From: a virus
DNA length: 24,696 nucleotides
Virus record (IMG/VR): IMGVR_UViG_3300032241_002599
Coordinates: 1 to 24,696 of that record
Reading direction: 5' to 3' (one strand)
In this document: in pieces, positions 971 to 23,327 of the stretch
Position numbering within the stretch: position 1 is the first letter of the stretch
Layout: the number at the start of each line of letters is the position of its first letter
Made by a program: the position numbers and the translations under genes
Notes under the pieces: model-generated
Seen by the model: only the letters and a program-made list of their open reading frames with translations
Told to the model about the DNA's origin: nothing
Database searches by the model: none

Positions 971-1192
971 TTAGTTTATAGTTATGGTTGATGTTTCTGA
1001 ATTAATAGACATTGTCCCCAAACAGGAAATGTTCCAATCTTCTCCGTCCTGCTCATCGCAGCATGGAACGTTTATTTGAACGTGTTTTGTTAAATATTCT
1101 TGACCGTTTTCAAATACGCGCCAAACATGTTCTAAAGAGCCTCGTCCAGGTTGCCCTCTAGATTTGTTAAATCTAATAAGGTATTTATTCAT
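971..1192 (-). CDS. Conserved small protein of unknown function
   Basis: A 73-aa soluble protein starting MNKYLIRFNKSRGQPGRGSL, with HVWRVFENGQEYL in the middle and DWNISCLGTMSINSETSTI at the C-terminus. I recall near-relatives among small unannotated proteins of T4-like cyanophages and other aquatic phages (KSRG..GRG..HVWRVFE...DWNI), but I know no function. It contains three Cys residues, two of them adjacent (PCCDE), with no clear metal-binding pattern. Its ATG lies inside the end of the upstream oxygenase gene (8-nt overlap), so it is probably co-translated with that cassette. Confidence 0.55.
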   Translation of the reverse strand: MNKYLIRFNKSRGQPGRGSLEHVWRVFENGQEYLTKHVQINVPCCDEQDGEDWNISCLGTMSINSETSTITIN

Positions 1193-1742
1193 ATTGCACC
1201 CAACCTGTTAACGCATACTTAGTATTACTTAACGGAGGATTACCTCTATGTACATAAGTAAAACTTGCGGGCCAGATTACTAAAGTACCTTTTTTAGGCT
1301 TAATTCTAAGGTGCTGATATAAAAATTCAGTTTCTCCACCCTCTTCCACATCGTTTAAATATAGCATCCAAACTAATATTCTATTGGAAGTTTTTAACGA
1401 ATCTGCTTCACAATGCCATATATGGTAACCGCCACCAATTTCTGTTTTTTGTATTTTATAATCTAAACTTATATGCCTTGCTATTGTATTTAAAATATCA
1501 AATTCATACGCATATTTTTTATAACATTCACCCCAAAAAACACTATCAAATTCATCCGTAAAATTTTTATTATTTACGTTGCATAAAAAAGCAAAAAAAT
1601 CTTCTTTTGCAAATTTTTTAGCGTTATCGTGTGTTTGTCTGTTTTTTATATCTTCTGAGGGTAACGCATTAAACCAATTAACTAAATCATCGCAAAATTT
1701 ATGCGAAAAAGCATTTTCATATACGCCAATAAATTTATCCAT
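1185..1742 (-). CDS. 2-oxoglutarate/Fe(II)-dependent oxygenase family protein (cassette member 1)
   Basis: A 185-aa protein from the ATG at 1742; a TTG nine bases upstream is an alternative start. The C-terminal half shows the double-stranded beta-helix iron-binding triad: H110-C-E112 in YHIWHCEAD, and distal H165 in YVHRGNPP, with K175 or a nearby basic residue able to hold 2-oxoglutarate. The GGETEFLYQHLRIKPKKGTLVIWPA stretch is typical of prolyl-hydroxylase-like (P4Hc) proteins. Such enzymes couple oxidation of 2-oxoglutarate to hydroxylation of a peptide, nucleotide or small molecule; the substrate here is unknown. It has HxE where most of the family has HxD, which still binds iron in some members. 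It is first of five such genes counted from the left, at the promoter-distal end of the cassette. Confidence 0.8.
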   Translation of the reverse strand: MDKFIGVYENAFSHKFCDDLVNWFNALPSEDIKNRQTHDNAKKFAKEDFFAFLCNVNNKNFTDEFDSVFWGECYKKYAYEFDILNTIARHISLDYKIQKTEIGGGYHIWHCEADSLKTSNRILVWMLYLNDVEEGGETEFLYQHLRIKPKKGTLVIWPASFTYVHRGNPPLSNTKYALTGWVQYE

Positions 1743-1743
1743 T

Positions 1744-2382
1744 TTATACAATAATTGGTGAGTTTACTTTTTGGGGCTGTTTTAACTGCGTTCCAATATT
1801 TAAATGCAAAAACTTAACGGGCGTGTCTGACCTATTTCTTGAAAAAGAATGAGGTAACCAAGCGTTAATAAAATACAAACAACCCGCTTTTGGCTCAATA
1901 TTGATCATACTACTCGCCATGGATTCATTATTTACGTCTAATTCCGGCAAGTCTATTTGTTTTTTAGCGGGCCTAGGGTCATGTAAAAACATCTTTAAAC
2001 TTTCTGCGGGAGTTTGCAAAAAGTAAAAAGCAGTTAATTGAACGCCGTTTGCATGTACGTGTTCCTCCATGCTTCCGTTTTTATAGTATTCTTGCGCCCA
2101 AATATTTTGACAAGTCAAATCTAAATTGCTTAAATTATACCCTTGGTCTTTTAAAATTGTATCGCCTATTAAAAGCGTATAGTCTAAAAAATCTTTTACC
2201 CGATAATCTAACGTAAAATCTTCCGTCATTAAAATTGGATTGTTTTGGTCAAACTGCTGAACTTGTTTTTGTTTGTTAGCAAACTCTTCCGCAATAGGAA
2301 ATAGCAAATTTATAAATTCAAGTTTTTCAATGCTGTAAATACCGCATTGAAATACTTGTTTTAAATTTAATACATTAGACAT
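1744..2382 (-). CDS. Putative divergent 2OG-Fe(II) oxygenase (cassette member 2)
   Basis: A 212-aa protein. The centre has MEEHVHANGVQLTAFYFLQ (H108, H110, N112), followed about 70 residues later by YFINAWLPHSFSRNRSDTPVKFLHLNI (H178, K190). This matches the shape of the 2OG-FeII_Oxy_5-type core (HxH/N ... GxLxxFxxxLxH...R/K), but the second iron ligand is not an obvious Asp or Glu. The sequence departs more from the family than its neighbours do, so catalytic competence is uncertain. The ATG overlaps the upstream stop as TAATG. A structure prediction showing a cupin-like double-stranded beta helix with H108/H110/H178 clustered would settle the fold. Confidence 0.6.
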   Translation of the reverse strand: MSNVLNLKQVFQCGIYSIEKLEFINLLFPIAEEFANKQKQVQQFDQNNPILMTEDFTLDYRVKDFLDYTLLIGDTILKDQGYNLSNLDLTCQNIWAQEYYKNGSMEEHVHANGVQLTAFYFLQTPAESLKMFLHDPRPAKKQIDLPELDVNNESMASSMINIEPKAGCLYFINAWLPHSFSRNRSDTPVKFLHLNIGTQLKQPQKVNSPIIV

Positions 2383-2933
2383 TACATTGGCTCCAAATTA
2401 AAAGAAACGGATATACGGGTGTCGTTTGTCATATTTGGGCGAACAGAATGTTCCAACCAACTTGGAAAAAGAATTAAACGTCCTTCTTTGGGCGCGTACT
2501 CAACTTGCCCATGTTGCATAAGTTGGTTGGGTTTATGAATCCTTAAATTTCCGTCTTTACCATTGGTTTTTAAATAGTAAACACCACTAATGTATCCAGG
2601 GACGTGATCGTGACGTTCCTGATACTGGTATTTATTATAATAGTTAATCCAGCTAAATGTAAGTTTTAATTTTTTAGGTTTTGAATTTAAATATGGATTA
2701 AATTGATCGGCAGCTAAAAATATTGCATTTTTAATTTCATTTAAATTAAATTCTTCTATTAAATTTTCAATTGAGGTAAATGTAGCATTTACATTGTCCC
2801 CCCAACATTCAAGTAAAACTTTATTTTTTAATAGTGGTTCAATATTTAAAAATTCATTAAGAATTTTTTGTTTTGTGTCTTCTGATACATCTTCATAAGC
2901 GACAAGTGTAGGAAACCAGGTTTCAATTTTCAT
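2382..2933 (-). CDS. 2OG-Fe(II) oxygenase family protein, 2OG-FeII_Oxy_5-like (cassette member 3)
   Basis: A 183-aa protein from the ATG at 2933, which overlaps the upstream methyltransferase stop as ATGA; a TTG start at 2948 is less likely. It begins KIETWFPTLVAYEDV, the usual N-terminus of this family. It then has SWINYYNKYQYQERHDHVPG with YISGVYYLK (H108-D-H110), and LFPSWLEHSVRPNM followed by DTRISVSFNL (H162, R173). These are the characteristic blocks of the phage and bacterial 2OG-FeII_Oxy_5 family. The H-x-H pair replaces the usual H-x-D/E, as I recall for many members of this family. The substrate is unknown. Confidence 0.82.
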   Translation of the reverse strand: MKIETWFPTLVAYEDVSEDTKQKILNEFLNIEPLLKNKVLLECWGDNVNATFTSIENLIEEFNLNEIKNAIFLAADQFNPYLNSKPKKLKLTFSWINYYNKYQYQERHDHVPGYISGVYYLKTNGKDGNLRIHKPNQLMQHGQVEYAPKEGRLILFPSWLEHSVRPNMTNDTRISVSFNLEPM

Positions 2934-3505
2934 TTTATCCACATCCAAGTATCATCAAATATACTTAATTGGCTTACAATGTTGTTGTCGCTTCTAAACT
3001 TTAATACAGCTTGTTGTACTACCTCTCCGGTCCAGTCATGCCCGGAAAACAACCCTTTTTCTTTTACCTTTGGATACCAGTCATTTAAATCTGATATGAC
3101 TTGTTCTTGTGTCATATATGTATCCAAAAACACAAAATCTAAACTAGCATTTTGACAGTGCTGGGCTACTATTTTGCTGTCTTCTTCTATAAAAAGTGCT
3201 TTGTCTGTGTGACCTGACCATTTAACGTTATGGTGCGCAATAAACTTAATTAATTCAATTTCTTTTTGATCAACAATATGATATGGCTCATTTGGATTAT
3301 ATGGATTACGTATAAAATCAGAATACGGTTTATAGTTATCAATTAAATACAGTGTTTTTATATTAGGGCAGTTTTGCAACAGTGTGCAAGAGGTGTGCGC
3401 TTTAAGTACTCCTATTTCTGCCCCAATTAAATTTTCCCCCAATAATAAATTTATTGGATGCACTAAACTTTGACCGTCTACTTGTTTAGATTCAAATTTA
3501 TACAT
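2930..3505 (-). CDS. Class I SAM-dependent methyltransferase (Methyltransf_24-like)
   Basis: A 191-aa protein with a Rossmann-type methyltransferase core. Motif I is GAEIGVLKAHTSC (residues 28-40), an acidic residue that could hold the SAM ribose lies at the end of strand 2 (LYLIDNY, D56), and strand 4 is LDFVFLDTYMT. Further on is KEKGLFSGHDW, the GGxxxxHD-type motif of Methyltransf_24 proteins. Some relatives act on sugars or peptides, but the target here cannot be told. It sits inside the oxygenase cassette with overlapping start and stop codons on both sides (TAATG and ATGA), so it is likely translated together with the oxygenases and may act on the same substrate. Confidence 0.8.
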   Translation of the reverse strand: MYKFESKQVDGQSLVHPINLLLGENLIGAEIGVLKAHTSCTLLQNCPNIKTLYLIDNYKPYSDFIRNPYNPNEPYHIVDQKEIELIKFIAHHNVKWSGHTDKALFIEEDSKIVAQHCQNASLDFVFLDTYMTQEQVISDLNDWYPKVKEKGLFSGHDWTGEVVQQAVLKFRSDNNIVSQLSIFDDTWMWIK

Positions 3506-4107
3506 TATTTAAATTCCGGACCACCAACCCAAATAACTAAAGATCTTCTAATTCCTCTAGTTACTGGCGCAACTCTGTGCAGCGTGTAAGAAGGAAAAAA
3601 CCAAGCCCTTCCTTTTGGAGTTGCCAAAGTAATAGGGACATCGGATTCTGGTTTAATTTGCAATTCGCCACCATCATACTCTAAAGGATCTGAAAGCGCA
3701 AGGGTCATTGATAGTTTACGAGGTACAGAGTTATCCCGTATTCCTGCATCCACATGCCATTCATAACCGCCATGTATAGATGAATCGTAAATGCTTAATT
3801 GAATTGGTTCATAGCATCCAGACAAATCAAAACGAAAAAAAGAAGCATTAATATCTGAAACTACTGCAGCAATTTTTTCCCAAATAAACATTGTATCTTT
3901 ATTTGGACTTATCCAAGCTATTTTACTTCTTCGTATGTTATGGTTTACTGTTCTATTTTCTTGATTACCGCCTATAACACCGTCTTCAGTTTGCAACCAT
4001 TCAGGTAACGCCAATATTGCATTTATTTCATCTGAACTAAATATATTGTCACAAAACGCATGGGTATCTTTTCCTGTTGTGTTTTTAGGAAAAATCGGAA
4101 ATAACAT
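3505..4107 (-). CDS. 2OG-Fe(II) oxygenase, PKHD-type hydroxylase-like (cassette member 4)
   Basis: A 200-aa protein with the most canonical active site of the cassette: H118-V-D120 in GGYEWHVDAG, distal H177 in YTLHRVAPV, and R187/R188 in GIRRSLVIWVGG for 2-oxoglutarate. The DGGELQIK and GRAWFFPSYTLHRV blocks match PKHD-type (YbiX/PiuC-like) prolyl-hydroxylase-fold enzymes. The length suits a single catalytic domain. It overlaps the next gene by a TAATG junction and starts 2 nt after the preceding gene. In phages these enzymes are widespread with unknown substrates; protein or nucleotide hydroxylation are both possible. Confidence 0.87.
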   Translation of the reverse strand: MLFPIFPKNTTGKDTHAFCDNIFSSDEINAILALPEWLQTEDGVIGGNQENRTVNHNIRRSKIAWISPNKDTMFIWEKIAAVVSDINASFFRFDLSGCYEPIQLSIYDSSIHGGYEWHVDAGIRDNSVPRKLSMTLALSDPLEYDGGELQIKPESDVPITLATPKGRAWFFPSYTLHRVAPVTRGIRRSLVIWVGGPEFK

Positions 4108-4109
4108 TT

Positions 4110-4685
4110 TTAAATCCTGTTTTTTATAAACGTTGGAGAGCGTCTAATTATAGCATCCCCAGCATTTTCTATAAAGCTACCATTTTTTCTTACGTAATGC
4201 AAAAATACTTGGCCACTATAATACCCATCGGGGCCATTGCATATATTTCTCCAATGTGGCACATCGCAACCGCTATAAATTACACCATCCCCAACGTTCA
4301 ATTCAAATTTTTGGTTACCCATACAAATTGGCCAACTGTATTCGTGTGATCTACCTAATTGTATTGTAACACTAACTTCGCATGCTGGTCTATCAGTATG
4401 CTTTTCCAATATATCCCCATTAGAATATAATCTAGCATAGGAGTATGTGGGCAACAATTCTTCCCCAACAATTTCTTCCATAAGAGGCCAAAGATGTTCC
4501 AGTAAAGTGTCAAAAATAAGATGATGACTTAAAATAGCTTTAGCATTTGGTATTTGCTCATCTCCCTTAATTTGTTCATCGCTTTGACGCAGTAATACAT
4601 GTGTGAAAAATTGACAAAATTCATTTGGTATTAAATTTGAAACTTTAATAGCCTTTTGTTTATTTAGTAATTTTTCAGAAATCAT
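4110..4685 (-). CDS. 2OG-Fe(II) oxygenase family protein (cassette member 5)
   Basis: A 191-aa protein with H96-T-D98 in LEKHTDRPACEVSVTIQLG, distal H144 in GCDVPHWRNI, and Q159 where an Arg or Lys would usually bind 2-oxoglutarate (YYSGQVFLHYV). The SYARLYSNGDILEKHTDR block is typical of P4Hc-like domains. The beta-helix turn NVGDGVIYSGCDVPHWR is well preserved, so iron binding looks intact. The lack of a clear basic 2-oxoglutarate ligand is noteworthy. It is the promoter-proximal oxygenase and is joined to the upstream fibre-associated gene by a TAATG overlap. Confidence 0.82.
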   Translation of the reverse strand: MISEKLLNKQKAIKVSNLIPNEFCQFFTHVLLRQSDEQIKGDEQIPNAKAILSHHLIFDTLLEHLWPLMEEIVGEELLPTYSYARLYSNGDILEKHTDRPACEVSVTIQLGRSHEYSWPICMGNQKFELNVGDGVIYSGCDVPHWRNICNGPDGYYSGQVFLHYVRKNGSFIENAGDAIIRRSPTFIKNRI

Positions 4686-5026
4686 TAGGATATCGTTGTC
4701 GTTGTCGTTGTATTTTGTGGAGCTAAATCAGTTACATTATAACTCAAAGTTTGACCAACCATATTTTTATATGCCGATTCTTTTGTTGGGTCAGAAATAA
4801 ATGCCTCTTTAGTTTCTTGAATTTGCGCTTGCCACATGCCAGCGGCAGCAATTAATTTAGGTATTTGTGTTACATCAGTAACATCTGGAAACATTGTATA
4901 CGGTTGATACGATAAAATTGGATATTGTGTTGGATCTTGAAATTTAGTTGTATCAGATGCAAAAGATACTAATAAAGAATGTGAATTCTCATCGTATCCA
5001 ACAATTTTCATAATTAATGTGTTCAT
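4685..5026 (-). CDS. Small fibre-associated protein of unknown function
   Basis: A 113-aa protein starting after a good Shine-Dalgarno sequence (AAGGAAA). It has a beta-rich N-terminal half (KIVGYDENSHSLLVSFASD), a helical segment (LIAAAGMWQAQIQETKEAF) and a Thr-rich tail. Small proteins of this kind often follow fibre genes, and a tail-fibre assembly or chaperone role is possible, but I do not recognise a family. Its location between the glycine-rich adhesin-like gene and the oxygenase cassette is the main clue. Confidence 0.45.
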   Translation of the reverse strand: MNTLIMKIVGYDENSHSLLVSFASDTTKFQDPTQYPILSYQPYTMFPDVTDVTQIPKLIAAAGMWQAQIQETKEAFISDPTKESAYKNMVGQTLSYNVTDLAPQNTTTTTTIS

Positions 5027-5042: not shown

Positions 5043-5999
5043 TTAAGCTACACCACCCAAACGAGTTCCAGTTGCGGGCCAAGTTACAAATGGGTTGCCC
5101 GTAATATAGTTACCTGTTGATCCGCCAGCACCTCCTGCGCCTGTAGGACTATTAGTAGAATTTCCAGTCCCACCAGTAGAACCAGGAGAACCTAAACCGC
5201 CACCAGATCCGCCAGATCCGCCTTGACCGCTATTCGAGCCCCTTGGACCAGTCCAAGTTTGACCGCTACCGCCCCCTCCTCCAGTATTAGCAGTTCCAGG
5301 GCTTCCTGGATTTCCAGGGGATGGGTGCTGTGCAGGAGGCCCGTTATTAACTGCTGGACCACCGCTACCAAAATTTGAACCAGCCCCACCGCCACCACCT
5401 CCTCCTACTGATCTACCAGTACAACAACCTCGAGTAGAATAACCTCCACCACCACCACCGCCACCACCAGAAGCTACTGTTCCATTATTAGTTACTGTAG
5501 TAGGACGGTTTACATATAATGCACTTCCTGCTCCAGCACCGTTACATCCAGTTCCATTTGAAGATCCTGCTCCACCAGAACCACCTGCGCCAACAATAGT
5601 TCCATTATTTACGATGGTTACTGTATCTCCCGGATTGAACGAAGCAGGTACTAACATTGCGTAAGATCCTGTCCCGCCAGAGCCTATGCTTACACCCGAA
5701 TTAATTGTGACAATTGCAGCTGTTTTCCCCGCAACGTATCCTGGATTAGAAGATACTGCTGAATACACACAGTAATTTTGTGTACTAGAAGAAATAGTAA
5801 TGTTAATTGTAACATTATTGGATTTTCCATAAAAGTTGGTTGGCATAACAATTGCCCCACTAGGAACTCCAGCCAAAGTTCTAACAGCGGTATCGTTTAA
5901 ACTAATTTGAGCGGTACCCGGACCGCCGTTTTCAATTTCAATAGATTGTCCGGCAGTTGTTCCACCTAGGCTAATTGGGCCTGAAGAGTTCATTGTCAT
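5043..5999 (-). CDS. Glycine-rich virion protein, adhesin/fibre-tip-like
   Basis: A 318-aa protein. The N-terminal 60 residues (SSGPISLGGTTAGQSIEIE, ALAGVPSGAIVMPTNFYGKS-like) match a module I associate with phage tail and adhesin proteins. A beta-rich middle follows, then about 170 residues dominated by Gly, Ser, Asn and Pro, including runs of seven to eight glycines. Interspersed Gly-rich loops recall the polyglycine-II sandwich tips of T-even gp38 adhesins. Two Cys pairs lie in or near the Gly-rich part (GCCTG and single Cys). It is probably a receptor-binding or fibre-tip protein on the virion surface. Its start overlaps the upstream fibre stop (TAATG). Confidence 0.6.
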   Translation of the reverse strand: MTMNSSGPISLGGTTAGQSIEIENGGPGTAQISLNDTAVRTLAGVPSGAIVMPTNFYGKSNNVTINITISSSTQNYCVYSAVSSNPGYVAGKTAAIVTINSGVSIGSGGTGSYAMLVPASFNPGDTVTIVNNGTIVGAGGSGGAGSSNGTGCNGAGAGSALYVNRPTTVTNNGTVASGGGGGGGGGYSTRGCCTGRSVGGGGGGGAGSNFGSGGPAVNNGPPAQHPSPGNPGSPGTANTGGGGGSGQTWTGPRGSNSGQGGSGGSGGGLGSPGSTGGTGNSTNSPTGAGGAGGSTGNYITGNPFVTWPATGTRLGGVA

Positions 6000-6754
6000 T
6001 ATGGAGTTCCAAATGCAGTTACGTTAGCTAATAGAGTTAAGTTACCAGAAGAATCTAGCGACATAATTTTAGTTGCGCCGTTATAGAAGTTTAACACACC
6101 AGATTGTTCAACAATACTAAAGTTGGTTGTTTTATATGCACCGTCAACCAACAAATTACCAACACCAGGATCTGTTGCTGTACCAATTGATACCCCACCA
6201 GCTGCAGAAATACGCATGCGTTCGACAGTGGCTGTTTTAAATACTTGGGGTGCGCTTACATCGGTTCCAAATACGGATAAAGTATTGGTTTGGTCCCAAT
6301 ACCATTGTGTTTTTTCTGTTCCATTATTATACAACGAAACCGTGGTAAATTGTTGGCCAGCATTATCAACTAAAACGTTATTTGAGTTTCCACCTTTTAC
6401 ATACAGTGTTCCAGGTGTGGTTGTAGAGCCAATAGATACTGTTGTTGCAAAAGTATTGGTATTTGTAAAGTTATTTACTGTATTTAATATTGAAGCGCCG
6501 TTTGTTCCCGAATATCCTGAATACCCAGAGTAACCTGATGTTCCGGTACCAACTGCACCACTGTAGCCACTAAAACCGCTATAACCAGACAGACCAGTAA
6601 GTTGAGTTACAACGTTAGATAGGTTTTTGTAATATATTGTCCCGTCTGCTACGTTAAACGCAAGCTCGCCCGTAACCAAGTTACCCGCTGACGGTACATG
6701 GCCGGTTGTAGAGCTGTAATACAGCTGAATGGGTGCGTAGCCTGATTGGGCCAT
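5999..6754 (-). CDS. Tail fibre protein with short Gly-X-Ser repeat
   Basis: A 251-aa protein. The N-terminus (PIQLYYSSTTGHVPSAGNLV, GELAFNVADGTIYYKN) is the phage-fibre attachment-type module. It is followed by a Gly-X-Ser stretch at residues 54-86 (SGYSGFSGYSG ... SGYSGYSGYSG), then a beta-rich region with repeated motifs such as SIGSTTTPGTLYVKG, MRISAAGGVSIG and IMSLDSSGNLTLL, typical of fibre shafts. Unlike the larger fibre at 9413-11545, it lacks an S74 chaperone. It shares the Gly-Tyr-Ser repeat with that fibre, which suggests common origin or recombination between the two. It is 3 nt downstream of the glycosyltransferase gene. Confidence 0.75.
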   Translation of the reverse strand: MAQSGYAPIQLYYSSTTGHVPSAGNLVTGELAFNVADGTIYYKNLSNVVTQLTGLSGYSGFSGYSGAVGTGTSGYSGYSGYSGTNGASILNTVNNFTNTNTFATTVSIGSTTTPGTLYVKGGNSNNVLVDNAGQQFTTVSLYNNGTEKTQWYWDQTNTLSVFGTDVSAPQVFKTATVERMRISAAGGVSIGTATDPGVGNLLVDGAYKTTNFSIVEQSGVLNFYNGATKIMSLDSSGNLTLLANVTAFGTP

Positions 6755-6757
6755 AGT

Positions 6758-7192
6758 TTATTCCTTTAGATGCTCTAATATTTCTTTTGGTTTTACAAAG
6801 CGATCATTACGGTGCTCGGTGGCTTCCCACCATATAAATTGATTAGCTACTAAACATGATCGGTCTTTTAGTAGATTAATATTTTCTGGATGCCCCCAAA
6901 TCAGTGGATCAGACGGCCCCCATAACACAATTCCTTTTTTACCCTCATCCCAAGCTAAATGCTGGAAAAAGCTATCAACTCCAATCCAAGTTCGACATTC
7001 TTGAAGCAGCTTACGTAATTCTGTTATTGGCAACTTTTTCCTAAAATCAGGAACAAGTTGTTTTTCACCTTCTAAACCAACTTGAATAATTGGTTCATCA
7101 ATCTTGCTAACTAACTCTTCCCAATACGGGTAGTTTTTTGGGTTTTCTTTACCTGTTCTGAGCTTTTGTGCGTACGGTGCTATGATAATCAT
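6758..7192 (-). CDS. GT9 (heptosyltransferase)-type C-terminal domain as separate protein
   Basis: A 144-aa protein containing only the C-terminal Rossmann half of a GT-B, family 9-like glycosyltransferase. It begins with the strand that opens that domain (MIIIAPYAQK), has ELRKLLQECRTWIGVDSFFQ then HLAWDEGKKGIVLWGPSDP (residues 59-95), and IWGHPE. These are the donor-site blocks of ADP-heptose:LPS heptosyltransferases. The matching N-terminal half is fused to the upstream GT2 gene, and the two genes overlap as ATGA, so they are likely made together and may assemble into one enzyme. Alone, this protein lacks the acceptor domain. Confidence 0.75.
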   Translation of the reverse strand: MIIIAPYAQKLRTGKENPKNYPYWEELVSKIDEPIIQVGLEGEKQLVPDFRKKLPITELRKLLQECRTWIGVDSFFQHLAWDEGKKGIVLWGPSDPLIWGHPENINLLKDRSCLVANQFIWWEATEHRNDRFVKPKEILEHLKE

Positions 7193-8163
7193 AAATATAG
7201 CTTCCTATATGCACTTTCTAAATCGCATTTCCACTTCCACTGGTCCATCTTTTTGTAAACGTTCCAAGTGTCTAAATCCCCAAACAACTGGATTGCTTCT
7301 GCTATAGATTTCCCGGGAACCACTTCAGGGTAACAGCTAAAAACTTCAGCGTCAGGTATTGAAGGAAGTACATGGCTGAATACAATATGGTCACCGAGAC
7401 CGCAATTGAGAACCACAATGGTTTTATCACGATGCGCAAGAATATTTCTGAAAATTTGCTCATCATGTTCATACATTTCCCTTTTTGTTTCGCTACGAAT
7501 CCCGCCCTGCGGATTCTTCATGTGCCAGGTCACTGCGTTTGGTACTACTAAAATGCTGTAACCTTTTTGTTGCAACTGGTATGTGAATAGAGTTTCTTCC
7601 CTGTGCGCTACGCGCGAAAGACCCAAATTATAATCAGCAATCCCAGCACGGTATAAAAAAGAGCAGTGTAGATGGTCAACTTCTTGAGCCACGTTAAACT
7701 TACCCCATTGAATATTTGGTTCAGAATTAATGTTATCAATTCGCCCACTCACTCCAGCGGTTGTTGGTAAATATGGTGGAGTCCAAATATGGCTTCCTAC
7801 TGCACCAAGTTTTGGCCACTTCTCTGTCCAACTGTAAAGCTCTTCCAATACGTTTGGTTCGGGGATTGCATCGTCATCACAACGCCACACCCATTCATAG
7901 CCCATATTGTTTGCTGCTTGGTGAATATGATGCTGACCTTTTTTCTCAGCATATAACCATTCCCACTCAATTCCTTTGTGCTGTAACATCTGGAAAAAGT
8001 ATTGGTAAATCATCTCTTTCCGCATGTCCTGCGGCTCATCATTATCATCAAAAACAATCAGCTTATCCGGCCGTTTAGTTTGATTAATAATGGCATTTAA
8101 TACTAAAGGCAGTGTTGTGAAGTACCGCCCCCGTGTTGCCACGGAGCACAGTACTTTACTCAT
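7189..8163 (-). CDS. GT2-family glycosyltransferase fused to a GT9-type N-terminal domain
   Basis: A 324-aa protein. Residues 1-235 form a GT-A family 2 glycosyltransferase: an N-terminal VLCSVATRGRY nucleotide-binding strand, a WRCDDDAIPEPN metal-binding motif (D96-D98), and later SRVAHREETLFTYQLQQKG. Residues about 246-324 are a second Rossmann half starting KTIVVLNCGLGDHIVFSHVL; the GLGDHI motif is the signature of the GT9 N-terminal domain. The ORF stops just where the linker to the GT9 C-terminal domain would be, and that domain is the next gene. It overlaps the upstream gene by 8 nt. A role in modifying virion fibres or host surface glycans is inferred from position only. Confidence 0.8.
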   Translation of the reverse strand: MSKVLCSVATRGRYFTTLPLVLNAIINQTKRPDKLIVFDDNDEPQDMRKEMIYQYFFQMLQHKGIEWEWLYAEKKGQHHIHQAANNMGYEWVWRCDDDAIPEPNVLEELYSWTEKWPKLGAVGSHIWTPPYLPTTAGVSGRIDNINSEPNIQWGKFNVAQEVDHLHCSFLYRAGIADYNLGLSRVAHREETLFTYQLQQKGYSILVVPNAVTWHMKNPQGGIRSETKREMYEHDEQIFRNILAHRDKTIVVLNCGLGDHIVFSHVLPSIPDAEVFSCYPEVVPGKSIAEAIQLFGDLDTWNVYKKMDQWKWKCDLESAYRKLYL

Positions 8164-9376
8164 TGTCCCACCTGCAAATCATCAAGTTACTTGGATTAGC
8201 AACATTTACCGCTTGCATCTTTTCAGAGATTGTCCCATCATGGCTTATGTATGCAAACTTAAAGCCAGGAAAATCTTTTTCTGTCAAACCATGCAACTTG
8301 TGATGCTCGCCCCAAAAGCCCTTTGGCTCGTTGTGTGGCACTGTAATTAGTAATCGTTTGCAGTGCTTTTTGAGCTTTTCAACAATTTCTAATCCGTTGT
8401 CAAGGTGCTCGATTACTTCAAACGCAATAATGTTGGTGTATGTACCCAGCTCATACGTATTAATGTCTGCTTGGTAAAACGTTGCGTCGTCAGACCATTC
8501 TTGCTCTTTAGCTACGTCTACAATAATGGGATCGTAATCCAATCCCATGTATGCTTTGGTGTTTAGAAACGGATAGCCGTAACCTGTAGAGCACCCAATT
8601 TCAAGCACAGAGCCTGGTAAAATGTTTTTCCCTGCCCATTCATATCTTTGCGTTTCACGGGGAAAAACTTCATCATCTTTTAAAAACACCGCGCGTTCGT
8701 AGTTGTTTGACAAACGCCATTTATACCATTCGGTATTGTATTTTTTTGCTAACTTAAGCTCATTTTTCAAGAAAACATTGCTCCAATCTGACACAAGCTC
8801 CGGATCATGTACTGTTCCTTCGGCTTTATGGTAGATTGGGAACGATCCATCGTCCCAGTTAGCGTCAATCTTAAATCCAGCCTTTTCGGCTTCTAAGCAA
8901 AACTCAATGTCTTCGCAGCCGCCAGTACTGTAGTCTTCGTTTAAAAAACCAATTGTTTGGAACACTTTCGGGTCAATCATTACACAGAAAAACACCGCAA
9001 AACGGCGCTGTGTGATATGAGAAAACTGAGTCCAAACTGCTGAAATATCACCCTTAGAATCTAGCTTTTCTAACCAACCATTATCGAGAATAATGGTGTC
9101 ATTGTTCAGCAATACAATTTTATCGCCTTTACAAACCTTAATACCTTTGTTTGTGGCTTTGGCAAACCCCAATGGGGCATCGCTCCAAGCGACGTACAAA
9201 TTAGGTACTGCTGTTACTAAATAATCTAAATATGCCCTTGTATTATCTGTGCAACCGTTGGCACTGATAATCAGCTCTACATCGTCCATATTGGAGTGCT
9301 TGATGATAGAATCAACGCAAGGTTTTAAATATTTCTCACAATTATTGTAAGTTGGTATTACAATACTATATTTCAT
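8156..9376 (-). CDS. GT2 glycosyltransferase-SAM methyltransferase fusion
   Basis: A 406-aa two-domain protein. Residues 1 to about 215 are a GT-A glycosyltransferase: SIVIPTYNNCEKYL at the N-terminus, LLNNDTIILDNGW as the metal-binding motif (N91-D93), and TGGCEDIEFCLEAEKAG as the acceptor-side ED motif. Residues about 250-406 are a class I methyltransferase: GSVLEIGCSTGYGYPFL (motif I), YMGLDYDP (motif II) and IIAFEVIEHLDNG (motif IV-like). The protein could add a sugar and methylate it or a neighbouring group. A Shine-Dalgarno sequence (AGGA) precedes the ATG. It is the first gene after the large fibre, which suggests the virion fibre or the cell surface as a target, but the acceptor is not known. 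Confidence 0.82.
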   Translation of the reverse strand: MKYSIVIPTYNNCEKYLKPCVDSIIKHSNMDDVELIISANGCTDNTRAYLDYLVTAVPNLYVAWSDAPLGFAKATNKGIKVCKGDKIVLLNNDTIILDNGWLEKLDSKGDISAVWTQFSHITQRRFAVFFCVMIDPKVFQTIGFLNEDYSTGGCEDIEFCLEAEKAGFKIDANWDDGSFPIYHKAEGTVHDPELVSDWSNVFLKNELKLAKKYNTEWYKWRLSNNYERAVFLKDDEVFPRETQRYEWAGKNILPGSVLEIGCSTGYGYPFLNTKAYMGLDYDPIIVDVAKEQEWSDDATFYQADINTYELGTYTNIIAFEVIEHLDNGLEIVEKLKKHCKRLLITVPHNEPKGFWGEHHKLHGLTEKDFPGFKFAYISHDGTISEKMQAVNVANPSNLMICRWDNE

Positions 9377-9412: not shown

Positions 9413-11545
9413 TCACAGCTTTTTAATCCTATCTACTTCGTCAGCTAGTTCTTTAACTGCTTCGATAATTAGCGCTGTTAGACGTTCGTAATGAACAGTC
9501 CAGTATTTTTCATCAATTGGCGCAGGAACAACAATTTCAGGCAATACTGCTTGAACTTGTTGGGCCGATACGCCAACTTCACGTTTTACTTCATAACCAA
9601 GGGCTTGTGCTGTTTCATTAGCTTCATAGTAGAAACCATTAAGTGTACGTAACTTAGCCAATGCGCTTTCAATATTGCCTAATTTTGTTTTTAGACGATC
9701 ATCCGAATAATACGCTGTAATGTTGTTAGTGGCACGAATTTCACCCGCGGTTCCAGAAGCTGGTGTGCCGACACCTAAAGAACCAATTTGATATGATCCC
9801 GTTGTGCTTGCAAAACCACTGTATCCAGAAGTTCCACTGTATCCAGATGTTCCACTATATCCAGAAATACCACTATACCCAGATGTGCCGATACCGCTAT
9901 ATCCAGAATAGCCAGAAATACCACTTGATCCTGTAGCTCCAGAAATACCGGAAAAACCACTATAGCCACTATATCCTGAAATACCACTGTATCCGGAGAA
10001 ACTGCTATATCCAGAGTATCCAGATGTTCCACTATAACCAGAGGTTCCTATTCCACTGTATCCGGAAAAACCACTGTATCCGGAAATACCACTTGATCCT
10101 GTAGCTCCTGAAATACCAGAAAAGCCAGAAAAGCCAGAAATGCCACTATAGCCAGAAATACCGCTGTAGCCAGAAATACCACTGTAGCCAGAAATACCAG
10201 AACCACTATAGCCAGAAATACCAGAACCACTATAGCCAGAAAGCCCAGAAATACCACTATAGCCAGAAATACCACTATAGCCAGAAATACCACTATAGCC
10301 AGAAATACCACTATAGCCAGAAATACCACTATAGCCAGAAATACCACTATAGCCAGAAATACCAGAAAAACCACTATAGCCAGAAAAGCCGCTGACACCG
10401 TTAATGATTGCTAAAAACACCGGTAAATTATTTGCAAATCCAGTGGTTCCGGTTCCTAATGATTTTATTAGTGTTACTGGATATCCCCAATAGCTATTTG
10501 ATGCTCCGGGATTATAGTTAACAGGCGTACCAGTAATTTGCCAAACTTGGTAGTTGTCGCTATTTGTTTCATCTTGAATGATGAACTCTTCAGACTTTGT
10601 AATGAACGACAAGAAAATATCAATGTCGGCGCCAGTTTGAGTTTTGTGTGAAACATAAACTTCTGTTGCGCTAGTTTGAGTAGCATTATTCCAAATAAGA
10701 AAACCATCTCCGGGGTATCCTGAAGTAATGGTTGTATTTGCTTCGTATGGAAACGAAACAGTAGAAGATCCCGGTGTTCCAGAAAAGCCACTATATCCTG
10801 AAATACCACTATATCCTGAAATACCGCTATATCCTGAAAAACTGCTATATCCAGAATATCCAGAAATGCCACTATAACCACTATAACCAGATGTTCCAAC
10901 GCCAGAATAACCAGAAAAACCACTATAGCCACTGTATCCTGAAATGCCACTATAGCCAGAAATGCCACTATAGCCAGAAATGCCACTATAGCCAGAAATG
11001 CCACTATAGCCAGAAATGCCACTAAAACCACTATAGCCGCTATAGCCACTTACACCCGAGCCAGAATATCCAGATATACCAGAAAAACCAGAAAGACCAG
11101 AAATGCCACTATAGCCAGAAATGCCACTATAGCCAGAAATGCCACTATAGCCAGAAATGCCACTATAGCCAGAAATACCACTAAAACCACTATAGCCGCT
11201 ATAGCCACTTACACCCGAGCCAGAATATCCAGATATACCAGAAAAGCCGCTTAAACCACTAAAACCACTAAAACCACTAAAACCACTAAAACCAGAATAT
11301 CCAGAACGTCCTGAATATCCAGATATTGGGCCTAAAACTTGTGTTGAGCCATCACTATAATAAATAGTTAAATTGCCGGTTGTTGGGTCATACGTTATTG
11401 AGGTAATTAATTTACCTGGTGAGGCGGCATTAGCAATTTGCGAAATGGAAGCCTGTTTTGTAATACCATTTTGAACTACAACAGCTTGCTCATTACCCGT
11501 TAAGGTAATAGCGACTGGTAGTTGTGTTATTGACTGATCTGCCAT
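9413..11545 (-). CDS. Large Gly-X-Ser-repeat tail fibre with C-terminal S74 intramolecular chaperone
   Basis: A 710-aa protein. Residues 1-73 are a short N-terminal domain (MADQSITQLPVAITLTGNEQ). Two long Gly-X-Ser blocks follow, at about residues 74-256 and 384-578, where X is mostly Tyr, Ile or Phe. They are separated by a globular domain of about 125 residues. The C-terminal domain (about 590-710) is a peptidase S74 chaperone: YYSDDRLKTKLGNIESALAK starts at 612 with the catalytic-type Ser614 and Lys619 of the SDxRLK motif, and ends in a coiled-coil-like helix. S74 domains guide trimerisation of fibres and then cut themselves off. Gly at every third position suggests a collagen-like or polyglycine-II-like shaft, though Pro is nearly absent from the repeats. 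Likely a host-recognition fibre. Confidence 0.88.
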   Translation of the reverse strand: MADQSITQLPVAITLTGNEQAVVVQNGITKQASISQIANAASPGKLITSITYDPTTGNLTIYYSDGSTQVLGPISGYSGRSGYSGFSGFSGFSGFSGLSGFSGISGYSGSGVSGYSGYSGFSGISGYSGISGYSGISGYSGISGYSGISGLSGFSGISGYSGSGVSGYSGYSGFSGISGYSGISGYSGISGYSGISGYSGISGYSGYSGFSGYSGVGTSGYSGYSGISGYSGYSSFSGYSGISGYSGISGYSGFSGTPGSSTVSFPYEANTTITSGYPGDGFLIWNNATQTSATEVYVSHKTQTGADIDIFLSFITKSEEFIIQDETNSDNYQVWQITGTPVNYNPGASNSYWGYPVTLIKSLGTGTTGFANNLPVFLAIINGVSGFSGYSGFSGISGYSGISGYSGISGYSGISGYSGISGYSGISGYSGISGLSGYSGSGISGYSGSGISGYSGISGYSGISGYSGISGFSGFSGISGATGSSGISGYSGFSGYSGIGTSGYSGTSGYSGYSSFSGYSGISGYSGYSGFSGISGATGSSGISGYSGYSGIGTSGYSGISGYSGTSGYSGTSGYSGFASTTGSYQIGSLGVGTPASGTAGEIRATNNITAYYSDDRLKTKLGNIESALAKLRTLNGFYYEANETAQALGYEVKREVGVSAQQVQAVLPEIVVPAPIDEKYWTVHYERLTALIIEAVKELADEVDRIKKL
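9813..10395 (-). repeat. Gly-X-Ser coding repeat, block 2
   Basis: Tandem 9- and 18-nt units encode GYS/GIS/GFS triplets, the commonest 18-mer being GGTATTTCTGGCTATAGT. Between about 10250 and 10355 this unit is repeated almost without change, pointing to recent expansion by slippage or recombination. Copy number may vary between isolates, and short-read assembly may collapse it. Confidence 0.9.
10778..11325 (-). repeat. Gly-X-Ser coding repeat, block 1, with internal tandem duplication
   Basis: The same 9/18-nt units occur as in block 2. In addition, a longer segment of roughly 150-170 nt appears twice in tandem: the stretch around 11020-11085 (CACTAAAACCACTATAGCCG through GATATACCAGAAAA on the plus strand) recurs nearly identically at about 11180-11248. 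The duplication keeps the reading frame. Confidence 0.85.
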
Positions 11546-20892: not shown

Positions 20893-22335
20893 TTATTGCG
20901 CGTAGGGGTTAGCTAGCCGTTTACGGGGGTCCTCGTCGGCATAATCGTAATCTCGGGCTGGAAGGGGGTCTAATCGAATCCAGCCGCTATCTCTGAGAAC
21001 TCGCAGGGCTTGGGATAGAGAATCCACGTAGTCATCATGCCCTCCTGCTTCTGGGAACGAACAAACTTGGCGTAGGAAACGTTTGGCCCATTCTGCAAAC
21101 TCTTCTTTTTTAGTAGGCTCTTCCGGGATGTAAACTTTACCCTTAGCTATCAGAGGTGCCACAATGTTAAGACGTTGTACCTTATCCGCACGTCCAGGGT
21201 TGTATGCTCGTACGGGGGTGCCAGATCCCTGAAGTTCCTGAATAAGGGAAATACCAGCCGACTTGTCTTCCATCAGAATGAGGTCAGCTTTACGACCCTT
21301 AGCAAAGGTATTGTCTGCTCCATAAACAACTTCCTTAAAGTCGTCGATTACTTTACGGCGCAGTTCTGGGTAGCTGAGGTGGTGGTCCCATGCGTCCAAA
21401 AGGATAACGCAGGTTCCGGAATCTTCTTTTTCAAATATACCCCACACTGTACATGCTGTTGGGTCGTTGTGTGTTTTCTCTGAGGTAGCTGGGTCGTATG
21501 AAGCAATAACGTATTCCAGATTGGGCGTTGGTTTATTGGCAGGCCATAGGCGAAACATCTTACGTTTAATAATACCAGATGATTCTGGGTCAAGGATCTC
21601 ACCATAAATCTCTTGCCGACCAATGTCGGTACCATCGTATGTCTCTAGCTGTTTGAAAAACGTTTCTGAAAGATTGGCGCGGTTGTCGTAGGAGCTGGCG
21701 TTTGCAACGTAGACGTCGCCCCCGACTTTGCCTTCGTTGAGGTCAACGATGAGCTCTTTTGGTTTTGGTGTGGTGGTAATAATCTGCTGGACTCGTGGGA
21801 GTCTAGGATCTCGCAAACGTAGGGTAAACTGTACGCCATCGTATGCGTCGTCAATATAATCGAAAGCGCACAGCTCATCGAACCAGGCTCCGTGATACTG
21901 TTTACCACGATAACGTTCGGGTTCGGAGGCTGGGATTCCCTGAATGAGGCTTCCGTTGATAAGGGTAATCTCAAAGAGGGACTTGTTGTAATCTCGGATA
22001 AGAGACGCGGGTATGATATTAAGAAGACCGGAGTCTCCTTCGAAGCAAGTTGCACGGATATCATTAGAGGTTGGGGCGGTGACAAGCCAGCGAGTGTTAT
22101 CGTAGTTCCAAGCGCGTATGCCAATCCAATGAGACGCCGTGTGAGTCTTACCTGATCCGCGACCAGCCAGCATAAGAAACGTATCATACTCCCCGTCCTC
22201 CGGTTCTTGTTGGTGTGGTAAGGCTTGTAGTTTCCATTTGATTTGCCAGATAGCGGCATCGAGCTGAGCTTTGGGCCAGTGTTGCCGGTCAGTAATAAAT
22301 TTGGTTAATGTCTTTTCTTGTTGCGGGGTTAACAT
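20893..22335 (-). CDS. terL: Terminase large subunit
   Basis: A 480-aa protein with both domains of TerL. ATPase: Walker A LAGRGSGKT (residues 56-64), Walker B with catalytic Glu GAWFDEL (149-155), preceded by the conserved EPERYRGKQY. Nuclease: SYDPATS (D281), LILMEDKSAG (E356, D357) and GGHDDYVDSL (D434, D435), a plausible RNase H-like acidic triad. The enzyme pumps and cuts DNA into the procapsid through the portal, and its length is normal. The ATG lies inside the last codons of the upstream intein-like ORF (ATGTTAA junction). No small-subunit gene is obvious next to it. Confidence 0.95.
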   Translation of the reverse strand: MLTPQQEKTLTKFITDRQHWPKAQLDAAIWQIKWKLQALPHQQEPEDGEYDTFLMLAGRGSGKTHTASHWIGIRAWNYDNTRWLVTAPTSNDIRATCFEGDSGLLNIIPASLIRDYNKSLFEITLINGSLIQGIPASEPERYRGKQYHGAWFDELCAFDYIDDAYDGVQFTLRLRDPRLPRVQQIITTTPKPKELIVDLNEGKVGGDVYVANASSYDNRANLSETFFKQLETYDGTDIGRQEIYGEILDPESSGIIKRKMFRLWPANKPTPNLEYVIASYDPATSEKTHNDPTACTVWGIFEKEDSGTCVILLDAWDHHLSYPELRRKVIDDFKEVVYGADNTFAKGRKADLILMEDKSAGISLIQELQGSGTPVRAYNPGRADKVQRLNIVAPLIAKGKVYIPEEPTKKEEFAEWAKRFLRQVCSFPEAGGHDDYVDSLSQALRVLRDSGWIRLDPLPARDYDYADEDPRKRLANPYAQ

Positions 22336-23327
22336 ACGGCTATGAATCCTTCTCCGACCAGGTAGCTATTATCAGCTCCTTCGGTTTCAATATGGACGCA
22401 CAACTGCGACGGCAGTTTTTCTATCCGGGTAATATAACGTCGCGCCTGATGCACGATTGGTTTTGTATGCGGCTCTTGGTTTTGTACTAATTGTAACTTA
22501 GATCTGAAATTAAGTGTAAAAGTTTTTCTGTATTCGTTAACTTCAAGGGATGTCTTATGCCCTAATGATTCTACCAGGCCCTGGATTTGCTGAACGATAG
22601 GAAGGCGGGTATGTGTGAATCTAAACAATCCCGTCTTTTTGGAATATGACTTGGACTTGGCGCACAGAATACCTTTGAGTAGTTCCAATCGCTGCTCGGT
22701 CGAAGCTAAGAGGTAGTTGTTTGGAATACGATACGGTAGATCAAAACTAAGGTGGGAATCAATAGTGGGAAATACCGAAAAGTATCGTTCCCCGTTAGAA
22801 TGTTTGCCACGTTCCACAATCTGGTACCCTGCGCTTTTAAACTTCTCAACTAGGAAGTCATGGTTGCCTTTAGAAAAGTGCATTCTTTTTTGGCGGGTTT
22901 CGTGGGTAAAGAACCAATAGCCAAAGATAAAGGGAGGAACTGGTAGAGACTGGTGGGGAAATTCCAGGGGCTTGGTGGTGGGTATGCTAAAAGCCCTAGC
23001 TGTTGCTGTTTGCATTAAGTTGTCAGCCGGTAGGTCTGAGACTTTACGAAACTTTAAAGGGCGTTTAAATTTAAACTTACCTTTGTATTGGAGGAGTCGA
23101 TCACGGTACAGTTTGTCCTCAATCTGGAATCCCAGGTGGGCATCTCCTGCCACAGTAAGGTGGTCGTTAAAAGAAACTAGGTAGCAATCTTTTGACCTGT
23201 ATTCTTGGACTAATGTGATTTTACAGGGAAAACCCTCTTTGTTAAACACATAGTCCCCGACCCTTAGATCGTGGGCAGTCTTCCAATAATCAAGCGTTAG
23301 TACCTTTTGATTCGCTAAAATTGCCAA
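22329..23327 (-). CDS. Freestanding intein-derived Hint/LAGLIDADG-like protein, degenerate
   Basis: A 332-aa ORF with the block order of an intein. Residues 5-28 are block A (ANQKVLTLDYWKTAHDLRVG DYVF), 57-68 block B (LTVAGDAHLGFQ, His present, the usual Thr replaced by Gly), 309-332 blocks F/G (CVHIETEGADNSYLVGEGFI then AVC). A LAGLIDADG-type endonuclease region fills the middle (FIFGYWFFTHE at 133-143, EQRLELLKGILCAKSKS at 211-227). Key residues are missing: no Cys/Ser at the N-terminal splice position, the C-terminal HN dipeptide is absent, and the Asp of both endonuclease helices is replaced. There is no ATG before residue 104; a TTG at 23327 is the likeliest start. It overlaps terL and the upstream gene. 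It may be a relic or a repurposed protein. Confidence 0.7.
   Translation of the reverse strand: MAILANQKVLTLDYWKTAHDLRVGDYVFNKEGFPCKITLVQEYRSKDCYLVSFNDHLTVAGDAHLGFQIEDKLYRDRLLQYKGKFKFKRPLKFRKVSDLPADNLMQTATARAFSIPTTKPLEFPHQSLPVPPFIFGYWFFTHETRQKRMHFSKGNHDFLVEKFKSAGYQIVERGKHSNGERYFSVFPTIDSHLSFDLPYRIPNNYLLASTEQRLELLKGILCAKSKSYSKKTGLFRFTHTRLPIVQQIQGLVESLGHKTSLEVNEYRKTFTLNFRSKLQLVQNQEPHTKPIVHQARRYITRIEKLPSQLCVHIETEGADNSYLVGEGFIAVC

Follow-up and report, generated by a model that had tools for sequence, protein, structure and literature searches.

A 24,696-base virus record from IMG/VR (IMGVR_UViG_3300032241_002599, positions 1 to 24,696; hereafter the window), which belongs to an uncultured bacterial virus, carries on its minus strand a tight row of five genes for divergent oxygenase-fold proteins (g1, g2, g3, g5 and g6) and one methyltransferase gene (g4), and this row runs on into the gene of a glycine-rich fibre-tip adhesin. 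We tentatively favour the view that the row acts during assembly as a module for modifying the phage receptor-binding apparatus, and that its oxygenases would hydroxylate the phage's own adhesin or fibre proteins. Own attachment proteins are favoured as the substrate because the adhesin linkage persists through rearrangements, because the coupling to fibre genes is co-directional, and because the modelled fold of g6 resembles that of peptidyl hydroxylases.

ORF (open reading frame) calling recovered all six genes at the coordinates given by an earlier sequence-only reading, namely g1 (1185–1742), g2 (1744–2382), g3 (2382–2933), g4 (2930–3505), g5 (3505–4107) and g6 (4110–4685), and their identity as five oxygenase genes and a methyltransferase gene was confirmed by Pfam and, for g6, by a structure model. 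The ORF listing starts g1 and g3 at an earlier TTG, with the ATG starts of the sequence-only reading in frame. TAATG-type overlaps (−1) join g4 to g5 and g2 to g3, and g3 and g4 overlap by 4 bp; the claim that most junctions are overlaps is borne out at these three, whereas g5–g6 and g1–g2 are separated by gaps of 2 nt and 1 nt. Translation of the six proteins from one tight gene row is supported, but the limits originally drawn around the cassette were too narrow. Beyond its 1185 end, g1 is overlapped by 8 bp by s73 (971–1192, minus strand), which encodes an all-beta protein of 73 amino acids (aa) from an undescribed family; beyond 4685, g6 is joined by TAATG to s113 (4685–5026, minus strand; 113 aa, alignment A5), followed by the adhesin gene (5043–5999) and by a gene for a fibre protein with a short collagen-like stretch (5999–6754; weak PF01391 match below cut-off, phrog_1699 E 2e-5), both also on the minus strand. 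The cassette is probably co-transcribed with the adhesin gene.

Four of the oxygenases match oxygenase families by hidden Markov model search, where assignment means a score above the curated Pfam cut-off. g1 matches PF13640 (E 8e-13) and phrog_61 in PHROGs (E 5e-50), g2 matches PF13759 (E 8e-11) and scores 40.6 against a cut-off of 62.5 for TIGR02466, g3 exceeds the cut-offs of both PF13759 (E 9e-23) and TIGR02466, and g5 matches PF13640 (E 7e-16) with a sub-threshold match to the PRK05467/YbiX models. g6 has no Pfam match and was settled by its structure model; the double-stranded beta-helix fold is therefore assigned from profiles, on sequence only, for g1, g2, g3 and g5, and from AlphaFold2 and Foldseek for g6. 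Profile-profile comparison of g6 with g5 found nothing, the two being related by fold only. g4 is a class I S-adenosylmethionine (SAM) methyltransferase (Methyltransf_24, PF13578, E 2e-9, 38.8 bits against a cut-off of 26.3) whose nearest PDB sequences include O-methyltransferases. Scans for relatives with single proteins returned none for g6 and two for g3, and alignments were needed.

Metal ligands were read from per-family alignments over all fetched loci, with 60–190 relatives per family. The g1 family has H, E (40) or D (20), and H, with K at +10 from the distal His; the g3 family has H, H (131) or D (34), and H, with R at +11; and the g5 family has HxD..H in about 185 relatives, with R at +10. 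The g2 family has H-x-H..H in all 124 relatives and no conserved R/K beyond the distal His, and the g6 family has HxD..H in 134/134 with no canonical R/K, apart from an invariant R at +2. A 2-His-1-carboxylate triad is accordingly present in g1 (HxE), g5 and g6 (HxD), while g3 is mostly HxH and g2 has three His only. The strong differences in ligands reported from the sequence are real, because they are family-wide traits, and the one triad that had been described as approximate is a conserved variant. All five oxygenases should bind metal, judging from these conserved ligands. 2-Oxoglutarate (2OG) is normally anchored by an Arg or Lys about 8–11 residues past the distal His, and this signature supports 2OG dependence only for g1, g3 and g5; for g2 and g6, where the canonical R/K was not found, the term "2OG" is unproven. 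The original count of five 2OG oxygenases therefore stands as five oxygenase-fold proteins, two of which lack the canonical 2OG-binding residue. Among solved structures, the closest analogues of g2 and g3 are the TIGR02466/PF13759 proteins 2rg4 and 3bvc, PDB relatives of g3 whose function is unknown and which share H-x-H with both families; the g2 group differs from them in that its third His is invariant and not followed by a conserved R/K, and in its coupling to s73.

g6 matches phrog_2954, labelled "ferrochelatase", with E 2e-44, and sequence search of the PDB gave no useful match. Its AlphaFold2 model, built from an alignment of 31 IMG/VR relatives, has a mean pLDDT (predicted local distance difference test) of 92.6 and a pTM (predicted template modelling score) of 0.89, and Foldseek aligned it to 544 PDB chains at E <= 0.001. 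The top match is Pseudomonas putida prolyl-4-hydroxylase (PpP4H, E 1e-8), and the viral collagen prolyl hydroxylase of PBCV-1 (vCPH) and PHD2 are within the top 50; all three act on proteins. The candidate ferrochelatase identity was rejected, since the model matches hydroxylases and not a chelatase fold, and Pfam gave no ferrochelatase match. H96, D98 and H144 are invariant in every g6 relative. Because the modelled fold and the invariant HxD..H are those of an oxygenase, the ferrochelatase label is unsupported, and the supposed partner of the phage oxygenases is, on this model, one more double-stranded beta-helix oxygenase. The protein-acting prolyl-4-hydroxylases (P. putida P4H on EF-Tu, vCPH, PHD2) share fold and HxD..H with g6, but at 8–16% identity, and g6 lacks the 2OG-binding Arg/Lys in the usual place. 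In Sullivan et al. (2010) the entry for these proteins reads "Hyp. with ferrochetalase domain" (PMC3037559), Wittmers et al. (2022) built on the ferrochelatase label a heme-iron "partner AMG" (auxiliary metabolic gene) reading (PMC9599517), and a literature search returned no paper correcting it.

Other annotations in this group look like carried-over misannotations of oxygenases as well. Oxygenases of the window match phrog_2954, phrog_3531, phrog_2297 and phrog_274, labelled "ferrochelatase", "DNA endonuclease" or "DNA endonuclease V", and SSM1_053 of cyanophage S-SM1, for example, retains H-x-D and the distal H. The g6 domain also occurs in larger ORFs. Those of 365–453 aa in loci L014–L018, L029, L034, L035, L038, L056, L059, L061, L079 and L084 are apparently two fused oxygenase domains, and a 657-aa ORF within a six-gene oxygenase run (L053:4564–6537) combines a match to Trp_halogenase (PF04820, E 2e-38) with one to the g6-type profile.

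The small protein s73 (alignments A10 and A11, one of 41 sequences; loci L314–L392) has no match in Pfam, PHROGs or NCBIfam. At least 582 relatives exist in IMG/VR; the GTDB species genomes gave one more, and a set of 50,697 phage records yielded a single one, which adjoins a "2OG-Fe(II) oxygenase". Locus scans each kept the best 80 matches, and in 67 of the 79 loci anchored by s73 only, the ORF directly upstream of s73 is an oxygenase (58 PF13759-type, 9 PF13640-type), against a background of 18/687 for the remaining genes of those loci. The s73–oxygenase junctions are mostly overlaps of 4 or 1 bases, and g2 is the closest window enzyme for 58 of the 72 s73-coupled enzymes; the g2–s73 pairing is strict. 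Median pairwise identity is 0.68 for s73 versus 0.41 for the coupled enzyme. Where no oxygenase precedes s73, the preceding gene can encode a tail assembly chaperone (PF16778, 2/2 tested). The AlphaFold2 model of s73 is all-beta (pLDDT 97.2), with no fold match in the PDB (best E 0.9), no useful PDB sequence match, and a few relatives, mostly uncharacterised, among viral models. For s73, the roles of adaptor subunit, substrate and structural protein are all conceivable. By eye, its RGxPGRG loop resembles the ribosomal protein L16 loop hydroxylated by YcfD; PDB sequence and fold comparisons gave this likeness no support, and it was not used.

The adhesin matches phrog_2056 ("tail fiber protein; host specificity", E 5e-6) and phrog_11439, and has conserved Gly-rich blocks (alignment A6) and a Gly-rich distal domain. 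s113, which is kept between adhesin and oxygenases, has no useful PDB match by sequence search, and its alignment was too weak for scanning; it is possibly a fibre chaperone. The arrangement resembles that of the Gly-rich tips Pam3 gp24 (chaperone gp25) and S16/T-even gp38, where a Gly-rich tip likewise follows a fibre gene and is followed by a small gene, with the differences that the window adhesin has no sequence match to a solved tip in the PDB and that s113 is only a putative chaperone.

Gene order around s113 is conserved in L009–L012 and L246–L248. In the nearest relatives, L246 and L247, it reads fibre, adhesin (64% identity), s113 (58%), g6 (69%), g5 (64%), another oxygenase-type gene, g3 (39%), g2 (52%) and s73 (56%), so that a search for the same order elsewhere found the series fibre-adhesin-s113-g6-g5-g3-g2-s73 in common, with g6, g5, g3 and g2 in place and a different gene replacing g4 and g1. 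When the adhesin alone served as anchor, an oxygenase lay at most six genes away in 51 of 65 loci, many of them on contigs ending early. With s113 as the reference point, 79 loci have the oxygenases downstream and 9 upstream, 2 have them on both sides and 6 lack them; because the oxygenases can sit on either side of s113, their association with adhesin and s113 survives rearrangement. Gly-rich ORFs number 7.1 and 8.9 per 100 kb in sets of loci anchored on an oxygenase or on s73, versus 0.8 in methyltransferase-anchored loci (about tenfold), and position permutation within loci placed them near 2OG genes at a distance of 2–3 genes (p about 0.002–0.008) in the g5- and s73-anchored sets.

Rows of this kind are not the rarity that the sequence-only reading took them for, since cassettes with several 2OG genes occur widely and have been published (PMC9599517, PMC9602691, PMC3037559). 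In the best 80 g6-relative loci of IMG/VR, the longest same-strand oxygenase run has at least 2 members in 64 loci, at least 3 in 43, at least 4 in 16 and at least 5 in 5, and relatives of g4 directly adjoin an oxygenase gene in 30/79 loci. Pelagibacter phage HTVC008M has five oxygenases consecutively (gp72–gp68), the last of the g6 family; HTVC033P has three close together, S-SM1 a looser group (051–061), and cyanophage S-SCSM1 24 2OG genes in one genome, in at least 13 phylogenetic clusters (PMC9602691). A run of five broken only by a methyltransferase is the upper tail of this known distribution. The pelagiphage and cyanophage cassettes (HTVC008M gp72–gp68, S-SM1 051–061, HTVC023P-type, Wittmers et al. 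2022) resemble the window's in their tandem divergent 2OG-type genes of the same families and in ending in or adjoining the "ferrochelatase" family; the window's cassette differs in having a methyltransferase and s73 and in running on into an adhesin gene. What is new relative to the published cassettes is the corrected identity of g6, the conserved tail-tip context and the coupled small protein s73.

A module acting on the attachment proteins would work as follows. One transcript would probably encode the oxygenases together with the Gly-rich fibre tip and the possible chaperone s113. The enzymes would require Fe(II) and O2; g1, g3 and g5 would also use 2-oxoglutarate, and g2 and g6 would probably rely on a different anchoring mode or co-substrate. 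The oxygenases would hydroxylate side chains of the adhesin or of neighbouring fibre proteins, in whatever order they may act; g4, present in some relatives only, would cap part of the hydroxylated products, and s73 would be an adaptor subunit or a substrate of the g2-type enzyme with its three-His site. More doubtful is the broader proposal that aquatic tailed phages possess a dedicated maturation line, in which several iron oxygenases, some of them three-His, hydroxylate a Gly-rich adhesin or s73 before assembly and thereby tune host recognition. The substrate is inferred from gene context and from the fold of g6, and several observations weigh against modification of the attachment proteins. 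When g6 is the anchor, Gly-rich ORFs lie no nearer to 2OG genes than permuted positions do (p 0.1–0.9), and since the loci are related by descent, with the best 80 taken per scan, the counts are not independent and describe linkage at the scale of a tail-tip module. The HTVC008M cassette lies on the strand opposite its neighbouring tail genes, that of S-SM1 lies among small hypotheticals, and MW202545 carries s73 away from annotated tail genes. Enzyme sets also differ between close relatives, unlike a fixed pathway, and for the sequential modification of one substrate that had been suggested we found no evidence; members are swapped between close relatives (L246/L247).

The same variation in make-up would be expected if the row were a fibre-adjacent recombination hotspot, a collection of independent morons in which unrelated oxygenases do different jobs and share no substrate. 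The dispersion of the S-SCSM1 genes over many clusters (PMC9602691) and the hypervariable fibre regions of pelagimyophages (PMC7029224) point the same way; a random hotspot would, however, give neither the other 2OG genes that accompany g6 relatives in 64 of the best 80 loci nor the strict g2–s73 pair, and we regard this explanation as unlikely. Alternatively, the cassette might alter a glycan or receptor on the host surface while infection proceeds, so that superinfection is blocked, for instance, or new virions do not stick to debris; its proximity to fibre genes would then be explained through the receptor. Three glycosyltransferase-type genes at 6758–9376, flanked by fibre genes of the window, make up a small sugar cluster of a GT9 fragment (6758–7192), a GT2 glycosyltransferase (7189–8163) and a fusion of a GT2 glycosyltransferase with a SAM methyltransferase domain (8156–9376), and Methyltransf_24 includes sugar O-methyltransferases. 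Glycosyltransferases in pelagiphage fibre regions have been interpreted in this manner (PMC7029224). A glycosyltransferase was nevertheless rejected as a conserved companion, with GT2 in 5/49 related records (1 above cut-off), and nothing links five different oxygenases to glycan chemistry, which leaves a glycan target rather unlikely. Collagen fared similarly as a general substrate and was rejected, its repeats occurring in 3/49 related records. The window itself encodes a 710-aa fibre (9413–11545) with eight collagen-repeat stretches (PF01391, E 3.5e-49) and a C-terminal Peptidase_S74 chaperone domain, the repeats following a Gly-Tyr/Ile/Phe-Ser pattern and containing scarcely any Pro or Lys. 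Viral collagen hydroxylation and glycosylation, as in mimivirus L230, is paralleled by a collagen-repeat fibre, glycosyltransferase genes and P4H-fold enzymes, but differs in that the repeats nearly lack Pro/Lys and collagen is not conserved in the relatives. The rarity of GT2 and collagen weakens both readings family-wide, while either may hold in this window, which has both. Among the fibre, surface glycan and DNA substrates first suggested, fibre is the best of the three, and glycan is disfavoured as a general substrate.

Biosynthesis of a small molecule or peptide, in which the oxygenases, the methyltransferase and, elsewhere, FAD (flavin adenine dinucleotide)-dependent halogenases would build a hydroxylated, methylated or halogenated product, has been proposed for a cyanophage S-SSM6a cluster (Iyer et al. 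2021, PMC7824862). It accords with the halogenase and g6-type domains in one ORF of L053 and with the tryptophan halogenase that adjoins a 2OG gene in HTVC008M, but no core enzyme (non-ribosomal peptide synthetase, ligase or carbamoyltransferase) was recognised among the scanned window genes, and the conserved companions are virion genes, so that we consider it improbable. Still less probable are host-metabolism genes for 2-oxoglutarate drawdown or for nucleic acid modification or repair, as proposed for cyanophages (Sullivan et al. 2010, PMC3037559): five divergent specialised active sites are needless for burning 2-oxoglutarate, the canonical 2OG anchor is missing from g2 and g6, Foldseek ranks peptide and small-molecule hydroxylases rather than AlkB at the top for g6, and the cassette is located in a structural block.

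Two other genes of the window were recorded in passing: a GroES-like co-chaperonin (Cpn10, PF00166; 17029–17466) within the structural gene block, and an ORF at 22329–23327, directly upstream of the terminase gene, that aligns with part of the terminase profiles in PHROGs and on visual inspection resembles a free-standing intein/Hint-type protein.

Phages with several oxygenases have been on record since 2010, still without an assigned substrate, and the customary interpretations (2-oxoglutarate drain, DNA repair, heme-iron partner) lead experimenters to look elsewhere than at the virion. Three results, namely the linkage to the adhesin, the revised identity of the "ferrochelatase" and the strict g2–s73 pair, yield a short list of proteins that can be tested. 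If the attachment proteins are indeed the targets, chemically modified receptor-binding tips would change sequence-based prediction of host range.

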